Assembly (NCBI GenBank): GCA_019313915.1
Contig: JAFDAJ010000028.1
Span: 1-42,450, forward strand
Source: Deltaproteobacteria bacterium
GTDB lineage: Bacteria > Myxococcota_A > Polyangia > Polyangiales > Houyiibacteriaceae
Length of the DNA stretch: 42,450 nucleotides
Reading direction: 5' to 3'
Within the stretch, counting starts at the first letter, position 1, and the number at the start of each line of letters is the position of its first letter. The translations under genes were made by a program, and so were the position numbers. The notes beneath the pieces are model-generated. The model did not search any database, had not been told where the DNA came from, and saw only the letters and a list, made by a program, of their open reading frames with translations. This document shows, in pieces, positions 35,599 to 42,388 of the stretch.

Positions 35599-36120
35599 AT
35601 GGCGAAAGCTGCCACAAAGAAATCCACCAAGAAGCGGGCGACGAAGAAGTCGGCGTCCAAGAAGACCGTGAAGAAGGCGGCCAAGAAGCGCGTAGCGCCG
35701 AAGAAGGCCGCCAAGAAGCGGGCAGCGCCGAAGAAGGCCGCCAAGAAGCGGGCAGCGCCGAAGAAGGCCGCACCAAAGAAGGCAGCCAAGAAGCGGACCG
35801 CAAAGAAGACGGTGAAGGCCGAAGCGGCCGCGCTGAAGAAGAAGGCCGCAAAGACGCGCGCTCAAGTTAAAAGGAAGCTGACCAAGGCCAAGAAGGACGC
35901 CCAAAAAGAAACGGCGGCTTTGAAGCGGAAGGCGAAGAAGACGAGCACCGACATCAAGCGCAAGTTCACGAAGGCGAAGAAGACCGCCGCCAAGACGAGC
36001 GCTGCTCAAAGGAAGCGCGCCACCAAGGCGATCGCCGATCTCGAGAAGAAGGTCGAGAAGGCGGCGAAGCAGCTGAAGTCGAAAACGTCGAAGAAGAAAG
36101 CGCCGGCCAAGAAGAAGTAG
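35599..36120 (+). CDS. Lysine-rich histone H1-like protein
   Basis: A 173-residue, extremely basic protein composed mainly of Lys and Ala with Thr/Ser/Arg, similar to the C-terminal tails of eukaryotic H1 and to bacterial AlgP/Hc1-type proteins. Positions about 25-54 are three KKAAKKR(V/A)AP repeats; the C-terminal two thirds (ALKKKAAKTRAQVKRKLTKA and onward) looks like a long helical basic stretch. It should bind DNA nonspecifically and compact the nucleoid or help regulate genes. The ATG at 35599 follows GGAG at eight bases. Several related AT-skewed repeats make length variation likely between strains. Confidence 0.88.
   Translation: MAKAATKKSTKKRATKKSASKKTVKKAAKKRVAPKKAAKKRAAPKKAAKKRAAPKKAAPKKAAKKRTAKKTVKAEAAALKKKAAKTRAQVKRKLTKAKKDAQKETAALKRKAKKTSTDIKRKFTKAKKTAAKTSAAQRKRATKAIADLEKKVEKAAKQLKSKTSKKKAPAKKK
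35671..35760 (+). repeat. Three tandem 30-bp units in the histone-like gene
   Basis: Copies 2 and 3 (35701-35730 and 35731-35760) are identical; copy 1 differs at three positions. Each encodes ten residues, so gain or loss would not break the frame. Confidence 0.9.
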
Positions 36121-38268: not shown

Positions 38269-38985
38269 TCAGTGGGCTTGCGGACGACGTGCCCGCGAAC
38301 GCGCGCGAACGCCATCTGCTTCCGCGCTCAGCTCGCGATCCCCAGGCTCTTCGCGCAGCAACCCCGCGTAGATCGCAAGCGCCCGTTTGAAGTGGCCCTG
38401 CTCCGCAAGGATGCGCGCCATGGTCCGAGTCGGGAACGGCTCCTCGAACATTCCGACGCTCTTGGAAAAGACGCCGACGGGAGGCCGGCTTGAAGGCGCG
38501 GACTCCGTCGTCGGCTCAGACTCGCCCGCAGCCCCGGTCCCGAACGCGGTCCCGGTTCCCATGCTTTGCACACTCGCTGGCGCAGGCGCCGCCACTGGCG
38601 CAGGCGCCGACACCGGCCCAGGCGCCAACACTGGCACTGGCACCGACGCTGGCTCTGACGCTGGCTCTGACGCTGAGACTGGCCCTGACACTGGCTCTGA
38701 CGCCGGCCCTGACCCTGACCCTGTCTCCAACCCCAGCGCCTCGCCCCGCGGAGGGCTCGAAGCCTCGTCTTTGCGCGGGGCCTCTTCCTGTGCGGCCTGC
38801 AGCGCCCATTTCGCGAAGCCGACGACCTTGCCGAGAAAGCCCGTCGAGGGCTGCCCGCTCGCTTGGCCTCGGATGGCGTGAATCAGCTGGCCGCGGCTCA
38901 TCGCGTACGTGTCGCCCACGCCTAAGCGCTCGGCTTCTTCTCGAAGCTCTGGTGTCGTCAGATTGTAGAGTCGCGTTAGATCCAT
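38269..38985 (-). CDS. RhoN/SAP-like domain protein with low-complexity linker
   Basis: A 238-residue cytoplasmic protein. Residues 1-40 (LYNLTTPELREEAERLGV) match the Rho N-terminal/SAP-like helical domain that binds nucleic acid. About 90-150 is a Ser/Glu/Ala/Pro repeat tract (SEPVSGPVSASEPASEPASV). The C-terminal 60 residues (TRTMARILAEQGHFKRALAI) look like a TPR. It overlaps the end of ribF by ten bases. Function unknown; the acidic linker resembles that in the repeat-rich protein near 41000. Confidence 0.7.
   Translation of the reverse strand: MDLTRLYNLTTPELREEAERLGVGDTYAMSRGQLIHAIRGQASGQPSTGFLGKVVGFAKWALQAAQEEAPRKDEASSPPRGEALGLETGSGSGPASEPVSGPVSASEPASEPASVPVPVLAPGPVSAPAPVAAPAPASVQSMGTGTAFGTGAAGESEPTTESAPSSRPPVGVFSKSVGMFEEPFPTRTMARILAEQGHFKRALAIYAGLLREEPGDRELSAEADGVRARSRARRPQAH
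38576..38725. repeat. Hexanucleotide-like low-complexity tract in the RhoN-like gene
   Basis: Many CTGGC(A/T)C/CTGACGC-like units, with CTGGCGCAGGCGCC occurring twice. It encodes the Ser/Glu/Ala/Pro linker in frame. Confidence 0.6.
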
Positions 38986-39947
38986 CGAACCAAATCCGGG
39001 TTCCGTTGTTGTAGCGCGTTCTTGGCTTGGTCGCAGTCCCGATCGATCTGTTCGCGCAACGCCTCCAGACCATCAAATTTCGATTCGCCACGGATGCGAG
39101 CCACAAAGCCGACCCGCATGCGCTTTCCGTAAAGGTCTCCGTCAAAGCCGAACAAGTGCACCTCGACTGAACGTCCCGCTCCGAAGGTTGGCCGATTGCC
39201 CAAGTTGGCGACGCCGTGCAACAGCGGCGACCCGGTCTCGTCGAGCAACCGCGCGACGACCGCGTACACTCCGTCTTTCGGCAGCAGTAGCGGCCCCACC
39301 TCGAGGTTGGCCGTGGGAAACCCAAGCTCGCGGCCCCGCTGGTCACCCTGCACGATGAGCCCCGTCGTCTCGTGCACGCGTGTCATCATCACAGCGGCGT
39401 CCTCTACGTTGCCGTCTTCGCTCAAGATTCGGCGAAGCCGCGTCGAGGAGACCGCGTCGCCTTCAAACATGACCGGCTCGACGAGCTCGACGGAGAAGCC
39501 CTCCTGCTGGCCCCATTGCCGCAGTGTGACGATGTTGCCGGAGCGTTTGTGCCCAAAATGGAAATCTGGGCCCACGACTACGCCCTTGGCGTCGCAGGCA
39601 TCCAACAAGACCCGTTGAACGAACTGATCTGGAGTCATTTTGGAGAATTCGCTGTCGAACGGCAGGACCACCACATCGTCACATCCCGCCCCCTTCAGGA
39701 TCTCGACGCGCCGGTTCATGTCGGTGATCAACACCGGCGCCCGTTCCGGCGCCAGAACCGCCGTCGGGTGCGGCTCGAAGCACATGGCGAGCGTTTGCCA
39801 GCCGTGGGCGTCGGCGGTCCGTTTGGCAGCGTTGATGAGCGCCCTGTGACCCAGGTGAACGCCATCGTGATTGCCAGGGGTGACGACAGAGTGGGTTCGG
39901 CGCATCAGCTCAGGGGCCCGGGAGCGGTGGACGTGCTCCTCCTTCAC
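38976..39947 (-). CDS. ribF: Bifunctional riboflavin kinase/FAD synthetase
   Basis: A 323-residue RibF making FMN then FAD. The nucleotidyltransferase domain has GNHDGVHLGH (25-34, usually GNFDGVHLGH; the Phe is His here), HPTAVL, FGHKRSGN and SSTRLRRIL. The kinase domain has GRELGFPTANL and GVANLGNRPTF. The start is GTG at 39947; the next Met (39905) is possible. The stop overlaps the RhoN-like start by ten bases. Divergent from xseB. Confidence 0.94.
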   Translation of the reverse strand: MKEEHVHRSRAPELMRRTHSVVTPGNHDGVHLGHRALINAAKRTADAHGWQTLAMCFEPHPTAVLAPERAPVLITDMNRRVEILKGAGCDDVVVLPFDSEFSKMTPDQFVQRVLLDACDAKGVVVGPDFHFGHKRSGNIVTLRQWGQQEGFSVELVEPVMFEGDAVSSTRLRRILSEDGNVEDAAVMMTRVHETTGLIVQGDQRGRELGFPTANLEVGPLLLPKDGVYAVVARLLDETGSPLLHGVANLGNRPTFGAGRSVEVHLFGFDGDLYGKRMRVGFVARIRGESKFDGLEALREQIDRDCDQAKNALQQRNPDLVRWI

Positions 39948-40039
39948 TCACCTACAGCGCCCTCAGAGACACTTCAACTCGAATACGCCCGATAGACACG
40001 TTGGTGACGAAGGCCTTTTGGTGCTGTATGGTTGAAAAC

Positions 40040-40303
40040 ATGGGGAAATCAAAGGTGCGGGGCGCTTCCTCGGAGGAGACACCGTTCGAGGAGGTCATGG
40101 AGCGCCTCCAGACCGTTGTGGAGCAATTGGAAGAAGGAGATTTGCCTCTCGAGCAGTCTCTGGCGATGTTTGAAGAGGGAGTCCGCTTATCGCGGGCCGG
40201 AGCGAAACGACTGGATGAAGCCGAGCGTAGAGTAGAGGAGCTCCTCGCAGCTGGAGACGAGCTGCAAACGAGTCCTCTCGAAGAAAGCGAAGCGGGGGAG
40301 TAA
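40040..40303 (+). CDS. xseB: Exodeoxyribonuclease VII small subunit
   Basis: An 87-residue XseB: PFEEVMERLQTVVEQLEEGD and LPLEQSLAMFEEGVRLSRAG are the two conserved helices. It activates the large subunit XseA, which is not in this window. The ATG at 40040 was chosen by family length; upstream Mets at 40028 or 40001 would add residues. Its TAA shares one base with the next ATG (TAATG), so translation is coupled. Confidence 0.9.
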   Translation: MGKSKVRGASSEETPFEEVMERLQTVVEQLEEGDLPLEQSLAMFEEGVRLSRAGAKRLDEAERRVEELLAAGDELQTSPLEESEAGE

Positions 40304-41106
40304 TGAGCCAAGTCCTCACGGTACCGACACACTTCAACGACCTAGGAGAGCTCTCCGAAGGTTTTCTCGATCGGGTCGAACAAGACACGTTGATCCTGTA
40401 CGGGCCGGTCGCCTACGAAGACGGATCCCAGATCGAATTCGCGGTGCTGCTTGCCGATGGCTCGCCCGCTCTCGAAGGAACGGGACGCGTGCGCGCGGCT
40501 GTCGACGGTGGCGCCGAACGCCTGCCAGAGACTCGCTACGACGTCGTCGTCGAGGCGCTGCAACTCGAGGGTCGTTCCGAGGTCGTGTTCGAGCGCCTCG
40601 TTCTCGCGCGTCAGGCGGTTTCCGATCGCCCAGCAGCCCAGGAAGACGAGCCAGTCGTCAACGAGGCCGCGCCCACCAACGATGACATCGAGCTTATGGC
40701 CGACGAGGTGGTCTCACAGCCGCCCGAAGAAGACGCCCCCGTGACGGTTCCGCCGGATGAGGATGCGCCCGATACCGTGCCGCCGGAAGCGAGCGACGAA
40801 CAAGATGAGGACGAAGACCAAGACGACTACGATGATGAGCCAGCGACGGTCATTGCCGCGGTGGATGCCGAAGCGATGATGGCGGTGTCCGAGCCGCCAG
40901 TGCCGGAGACAGAGACAGAGGCAGCGTCAGAGACAGAGACAGCGTCAGAGACAGCGTCAGTGTCAGAGCCGGTGTTGGAGTCTGTGCCAGTGTCGGAGCC
41001 GGTGTTGGAGTCTGTGCCAGTGTCGGAGCCGGTGTTGGAGTCTGTGCCAGTGTCGGAGCCGGTGTGTCGGAGCCGGTGTTGGAGTCAGACGCCGATGATG
41101 TCGTAG
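40303..41106 (+). CDS. Acidic repeat-rich protein, 5' part (frameshifted)
   Basis: The N-terminal 105 residues (VQQ-free; begins MSQVLTVPTHFNDLGELSEG) contain AVLLADGSPALEGTGRVRAA, which resembles atypical PilZ-like domains of myxobacteria; the RxxxR c-di-GMP motif is absent. A strongly acidic linker follows (DEQDEDEDQDDYDDEP), then a SEPVLESVPV repeat array. The frame breaks at a 14-bp tandem duplication at 41051-41078, so the last residues (CRSRCWSQTPMMS) are out of frame; the true continuation is at 41064-41630. It is coupled to xseB by one base. Cytoplasmic, function unknown. Confidence 0.7.
   Translation: MSQVLTVPTHFNDLGELSEGFLDRVEQDTLILYGPVAYEDGSQIEFAVLLADGSPALEGTGRVRAAVDGGAERLPETRYDVVVEALQLEGRSEVVFERLVLARQAVSDRPAAQEDEPVVNEAAPTNDDIELMADEVVSQPPEEDAPVTVPPDEDAPDTVPPEASDEQDEDEDQDDYDDEPATVIAAVDAEAMMAVSEPPVPETETEAASETETASETASVSEPVLESVPVSEPVLESVPVSEPVLESVPVSEPVCRSRCWSQTPMMS
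40957..41084 (+). repeat. 30-bp tandem repeat array with out-of-frame 14-bp duplication
   Basis: Units of 30 bases encode SEPVLESVPV: one diverged copy at 40951-40980, exact copies at 40981-41010 and 41011-41040, then a partial copy. At the end, TGTCGGAGCCGGTG is repeated directly (41051-41064 and 41065-41078), which shifts the frame. Confidence 0.92.
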
Positions 41107-41630
41107 TCGAGGCCAGCATGGGCGAGGCTTCGGATTGGGATGCGGAGGCCGGGGCTGAGCTTTCTGTGGATGCGCAGTCGGCGCTCGAAGCGAACACCGA
41201 CCAAGAGGGCGGTTTCGACTCGGAGTACGCGTTTGAGCATGGCATCGCCGAAGAGCCGCAAGTCGGTATGCCAGTTCCCGTTCCTTCGATGGCTGCGCCT
41301 CCCGAGGCTCCGCCCGCACCGCCTACGCTTCGCCTGGCCGAACCTCCCGAGGGGCTCACGCGGCCGTCCTTGGCGCAGGCTGAGGAGTCGTTGTTCACGG
41401 CTGAGGGCGAGGTTAGCGACGTTCACACGACAGGCCTTTTCGTCTACGAAAACGGCCTTCCGATTCCCTCACGGCCCCCGCTTCCGGACCCCGACGGTCC
41501 TCGAGCCGCGGCCGCCGTTGAAGCTGTTGACGGTTACGACGTCGAAGATTCGGAGCCGCCGCAATCCAATGACGATGAATATGAAGAAGTTCGCCTCAGC
41601 GATTTTGCTGAGGCAGCCGAAGAAGGGTGA
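41064..41630 (+). CDS. Acidic repeat-rich protein, 3' part (after frameshift)
   Basis: This continues the gene at 40303. It starts inside the repeat (SEPVLESDADDVV) and stays acidic and disordered, with a Pro-rich stretch (PPEAPPAPPTLRLAEPP) and a short conserved-looking end (VRLSDFAEAAEEG). Removing one copy of the 14-bp duplication would give one protein of about 437 residues. The GTG/ATG-like start at 41064 has no convincing ribosome site, so independent translation is doubtful. Confidence 0.6.
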   Translation: MSEPVLESDADDVVVEASMGEASDWDAEAGAELSVDAQSALEANTDQEGGFDSEYAFEHGIAEEPQVGMPVPVPSMAAPPEAPPAPPTLRLAEPPEGLTRPSLAQAEESLFTAEGEVSDVHTTGLFVYENGLPIPSRPPLPDPDGPRAAAAVEAVDGYDVEDSEPPQSNDDEYEEVRLSDFAEAAEEG

Positions 41631-42010: not shown

Positions 42011-42388
42011 ATGCGTAGAAACTGGATACTGCCCTGGTTGGGGGGCGTCATTGCATTGGCATGCGTTGCACCGGTCTACGCGCAAGCCGACCCAGCGTCC
42101 GACGCGAGCGAGCGGGAAGCTCGCCTAGCCGAGGTTCAGAACAGCTTCAGCGGACCGACGGGCGGCATTCGCATCATCGATGCCTCGTCCGGTCCCAAAG
42201 GCACATTTCGTCTCGCGCTGAACACTGAGTTCTTCATCATCGGTGACTTCTTCGTTCCAACCGACACGGCGCACTCCTTTGCGAGCAACCTCTCGCTGAG
42301 CATTACACCGACCGAGTACCTGGAGGTGTTTGCGGCGGCGGAAAAGCGACCCTCCGTGCGACGAGCTTCGGCTTTCGCGGAAACGTGA
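42011..42388 (+). CDS. Outer-membrane-type protein, 5' part (frameshifted, cut by window edge)
   Basis: A signal peptide (MRRNWILPWLGGVIALACVA, cleavage near VYAQA) is followed by strand-like segments (GTFRLALNTEFFIIGDFFVP, LSLSITPTEYLEVFAAAE) typical of a beta-barrel. GAGGGAA directly precedes the ATG. The frame ends at 42388, but the other frame just after an A-run continues naturally (KATLRATSFGFRGNVTLDF), so a one-base loss near 42342-42345 has probably truncated the gene. The rest lies beyond the window. Confidence 0.65.
   Translation: MRRNWILPWLGGVIALACVAPVYAQADPASDASEREARLAEVQNSFSGPTGGIRIIDASSGPKGTFRLALNTEFFIIGDFFVPTDTAHSFASNLSLSITPTEYLEVFAAAEKRPSVRRASAFAET

Follow-up and report, generated by a model that had tools for sequence, protein, structure and literature searches.

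The locus and its repeat array

The DNA analyzed here (the window) spans the full length of a 42.45-kb contig (C13) in a 448-contig draft assembly. Within the same genus, every named record is a MAG, and the genome to which the window belongs is presumably a MAG as well. On the + strand of the window, the gene for the small subunit of exonuclease VII, xseB (40001-40303), lies immediately upstream of a gene that is split into two open reading frames (ORFs), and the xseB stop overlaps the start of this split gene. The 5' part (40303-41106, + strand; 267 aa) terminates at a TAG codon (41104-41106) and is comprised of a predicted PilZ-like domain (approximately residues 1-105), an acidic region, an SE/SP repeat array, and a set of aberrant codons that follow the frameshift. 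The 3' part (41064-41630, + strand; 188 aa) ends in ...YEEVRLSDFAEAAEEG. In comparison with three relatives, the dN/dS of this downstream half is 0.09-0.16, with differences occurring mostly at third codon positions; because the downstream half is under purifying selection, any break in the split gene would be either recent or spurious. An ATG at 41118, 12 bp past the premature TAG, shares the frame of the downstream half and is preceded by GAGG, and re-initiation at this codon is conceivable if the break is real.

The frame is lost within a region of nested repeats. A series of 6/12/18-bp in-frame repeats encoding (E/A)(T/S) stretches (40906-40968, + strand) occurs upstream of a 30-bp array (40960-41065, + strand), the units of which encode VSEPVLESVP. 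The array includes one unit with a single mismatch (40960-40989), two exact units (40990-41019 and 41020-41049), and a 16-bp partial unit; the unit comparison thereby agrees with the initial annotation, which had described two exact units and one diverged unit ahead of the shift. That annotation had also placed a 14-bp direct repeat inside the array, and this is found as a tandem duplication on the + strand at 41051-41078 (two exact copies of TGTCGGAGCCGGTG), after which the frame changes. Within the window, copies of TGTCGGAGCCGGTG start at 40991, 41021, 41051, and 41065, the last two being the tandem pair, and a period-14 exact match spans 41050-41079, such that the junction has a 2-bp (GT) ambiguity. 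When one of the copies is removed, SEPVLES is joined to DADDVVVEAS, as had been proposed, and the open frame, measured from stop to stop, is extended from 263 to 461 codons. Approximately 0.009 exact tandem duplications of at least 14 bp would be expected by chance in 0.8 Mb, and chance is no explanation for the one observed. Because 14 and 16 sum to the 30-bp unit, the apparent gain of 14 bp is equally well described as the removal of 16 bp from an array that had one more unit.

Other repeats were observed in the window and its genome. SE/SP-type arrays number in the dozens in the genome, and a second protein containing such repeats, in frame, is encoded in the window at 38269-38985 (- strand), adjoining a riboflavin-kinase/FAD-synthase-like ORF (38976-39947). 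Additionally, in-frame 30/60-bp Lys/Ala-rich repeats are located at 35670-35854, in an ORF with a histone-H1-like tail (KKAAKKR). On another contig (C301; L138:11148-11227), an exact 40-bp tandem duplication (AAAGGAGATCACTCATGGGACTC...) contains a start codon as well as a stretch resembling a ribosome-binding site.

Homologues and the predicted protein

Queries from the N-terminal and the C-terminal portions of the split gene match one single open frame wherever the same-genus locus is complete. The 12 complete, gap-free homologues from the genus (333-437 aa) are uninterrupted from the N-terminal domain through the conserved C-terminus. A thirteenth (G003) likewise reaches the conserved C-terminal end, but holds a 100-N gap, and the remaining two are either cut at a contig end (G007) or divided over two contigs (G005); assembly has thus interrupted this gene in three further drafts. 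The initial annotation had raised the prospect that homologues might all stop where the 5' part stops, and all 12 complete, gap-free sequences were found to read through this point. Two separate genes with a normal boundary are ruled out by the homologues reading through, and, judged from these sequence comparisons, the ORFs at 40303-41106 and 41064-41630 are one gene. The frame break at 41051-41078 is private to the assembly of the window, given that 12 of the 12 complete, gap-free homologues are intact.

The first 110 residues (40303-40632, + strand) form a conserved N-terminal domain, with a mean column identity of 78% in an alignment from the genus and family, and are predicted to adopt a PilZ-like fold. 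Among solved structures, the best matches to the AlphaFold2 model of this domain (pLDDT 90.4) are PilZ chains from Xanthomonas (Foldseek E from 6e-4), and VIA-align comparison with Xanthomonas PilZ yielded Z values of 8.1-8.9 over 88-99 residues. By this modeling, the closest fold is that of the non-canonical PilZ proteins of type IV pili (Xanthomonas XAC1133/XC1028), although identity to these proteins is only 10-20%, the Pfam PilZ score is not meaningful (one of 21 homologues matched, weakly, with E 0.13), and the domain here is followed by a long, acidic tail of repeats and by a conserved segment at the C-terminus. A sequence search with the N-terminal domain against solved structures found nothing. 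An alignment of 21 homologues, read by eye, shows no conservation of either canonical c-di-GMP motif (RxxxR and [D/N]xSxxG), and one of the matched Xanthomonas PilZ structures carries a title of trivial c-di-GMP binding. The remainder of the protein consists of a variable, acidic, Ser/Glu/Pro-rich tail and the conserved C-terminal segment; the latter had no family match, and a Pfam search with the two split ORFs returned only a low-complexity match to Extensin.

Between the conserved ends, the middle region differs greatly from species to species, and always in whole codons. The initial annotation had envisaged both length variation and on/off variation of this protein, and while the array does vary in length from species to species without loss of frame, on/off variation by out-of-frame slips is not supported: no relative has an out-of-frame array at the split gene, and, of 80 exact tandem duplications identified in 0.80 Mb of the window's genome, 72 are multiples of 3 bp. 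(This genome was searched by sampling, and approximately 33 kb of the short contigs sampled consist of N and are uninformative.)

These observations bear on reversible phase variation, in which out-of-frame slips would toggle the C-terminal half within the population while 30-bp steps tune its length. Phase-variable tandem repeats are known from other systems, in which repeat copy number varies (PMC12817950), and the split gene shares with such contingency loci a tandem array within the coding region, a change of frame, and, between species, a difference in array length. The repeat unit is a multiple of 3 bp, in contrast to what defines a contingency locus of this kind, so slippage by whole 30-bp units keeps the frame; only a rare intra-unit event would shift it, and reversal would require the exact inverse of that event. 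Furthermore, all 12 complete, gap-free homologues, from collections with one genome per species, are in frame, and the repeats of this kind in the genome keep their frame. We therefore consider phase variation very improbable on this evidence, and would be surprised if this uncultured myxobacterium toggled the conserved C-terminal segment of its PilZ-like protein by reversible intra-unit slippage.

Frame breaks in the contig and the assembly

A synteny scan against the homologous region of six relatives was used to locate the window genes in which matches to these relatives switch frame; a variant of the scan that also included antisense ORFs was too noisy and was replaced. Breaks backed by at least four relatives number exactly three, at approximately 493, 41060, and 42340, and each is at most 1.4 kb from a contig end. 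In the intervening 40 kb, the six-relative scan detected no window-specific break with support from at least four relatives. Random placement of three breaks so near the ends has a probability of approximately 3e-4, a value computed after seeing the data. At the opposite end of the contig from the split gene, a 23-bp exact, out-of-frame tandem duplication (470-515, + strand) shifts the frame of a gene with a DATGSM VWA-like motif, the open frame of which spans 700-854 codons in most relatives. The third break is a junction of a deletion of approximately 155 bp (42340-42345, + strand), 110 bp from the contig end, that causes a frameshift in an OmpA-family gene; the absent segment is present in every relative compared.

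Similar breaks occur elsewhere in the assembly, away from contig ends. In rpsA, which encodes ribosomal protein S1, an exact, out-of-frame 10-bp tandem duplication (C208:37312-37332; L118:17312-17332) breaks the frame near residue 165, with 88-96% identity on both sides of the break, and no other full-length rpsA was found in the assembly. The gene for adenosine deaminase is also broken by an exact, out-of-frame 10-bp tandem duplication (C129:45461-45482; L131:5461-5482). When the synteny scan was applied to four more contigs, breaks were placed at C208:37323 (two relatives) and C129:45471 (one relative), and both coincide with these independently found duplications. The indispensability of rpsA is established for other proteobacteria, and it is not credible that a lineage would carry a frameshift in its sole S1 gene; at least the rpsA duplication is therefore spurious, and the assembly holds errors of the same form as the duplication in the split gene.

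The repeat family of the split gene is also associated with the ends of contigs: 6 of its 29 arrays are located within 300 bp of a contig end, vs. 0.7 expected. Two contigs each terminate in a Ser/Glu-type array (C335 at its right end and C129 at its left end), and since their flanking genes are neighbors in two other genomes (G014 and G018), the assembly apparently broke within one array. Exact ORF-breaking duplications number 5 in 0.84 Mb of this genome vs. 3 in 1.08 Mb of relatives (themselves metagenome drafts where named), and because this excess is not significant, the case for an artefact is based on which genes are struck and where, rather than on the rate. A scan for frame switches in codon usage revealed no clear enrichment at contig ends (100 per Mb at ends, 82 in interiors, and approximately 102 in controls) and was non-specific.

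The distribution of these breaks weighs on the possibility of a real, recent mutation, whereby slippage of the array in the sampled strain (a gain of 14 bp or a loss of 16 bp) knocked out the C-terminal half of the protein. In such a strain, the truncated protein of 267 aa would be made, possibly along with a separate C-terminal piece produced by re-initiation at the ATG at 41118. An exact duplication within a slippage-prone array that varies between species is consistent with this account, as is the intact C-terminal half, the low dN/dS of which is expected of a very young break. It would, however, require three independent breaks in one contig, all near the ends and with none equally supported in the 40 kb between them, as well as similar breaks in rpsA and the adenosine deaminase gene; moreover, slippage of a 30-bp array normally proceeds in steps of 30 bp, and the microhomology available for a 14-bp step amounts to only 2 bp. 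A real mutation thus appears rather unlikely, although a good deal less so than phase variation.

Origin of the frame break

Because the two ORFs belong to one gene, the break is private to this assembly, and similar breaks occur in rpsA and other genes, the frame break in the split gene is probably an artefact of assembly, with strain mixture included among its possible sources. In the organism, the gene most likely exists as one intact open frame, and would encode the PilZ-like domain, an acidic Ser/Glu/Pro-rich tail that varies by whole codons, and the conserved C-terminal segment. The error may have arisen as the assembler worked near a contig end, in an array of near-identical 30-bp units that short reads resolve poorly. 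A short overlap could have been left uncollapsed (+14 bp), or two repeat units could have been joined out of register (-16 bp), for example due to a mixture of strains, and either event would produce the frameshift. The assembly step responsible is inferred, as is the expectation that reads would contradict the duplication.

Several considerations count against an assembly artefact. The excess of exact ORF-breaking duplications over relatives is not significant, the codon-usage scan gave no clear signal at contig ends, and the breaks in rpsA and the adenosine deaminase gene are located away from such ends. Moreover, when assemblers collapse or expand an array, they usually do so by entire units, which in this instance would be 30 bp, and a tandem array is also a natural site of real slippage. 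Spurious pseudogenes are documented to arise from low-coverage assembly (PMC11017572), and that account has in common with the present one that otherwise conserved genes of a fragmented draft, a core gene among them, carry frameshifts. Its subject is the sequencing platform and the read coverage of public assemblies, whereas exact short tandem duplications are specific to the case described here.

Were the break both real and reversible, myxobacteria would have a PilZ-like protein subject to phase variation. In the likelier event of an artefact, the split gene serves as a caution against reading frame breaks in the repeat-containing genes of fragmented metagenome drafts as biology, and it offers a simple check, which is to seek similar exact tandem duplications in core genes (e.g., rpsA) of the same assembly.
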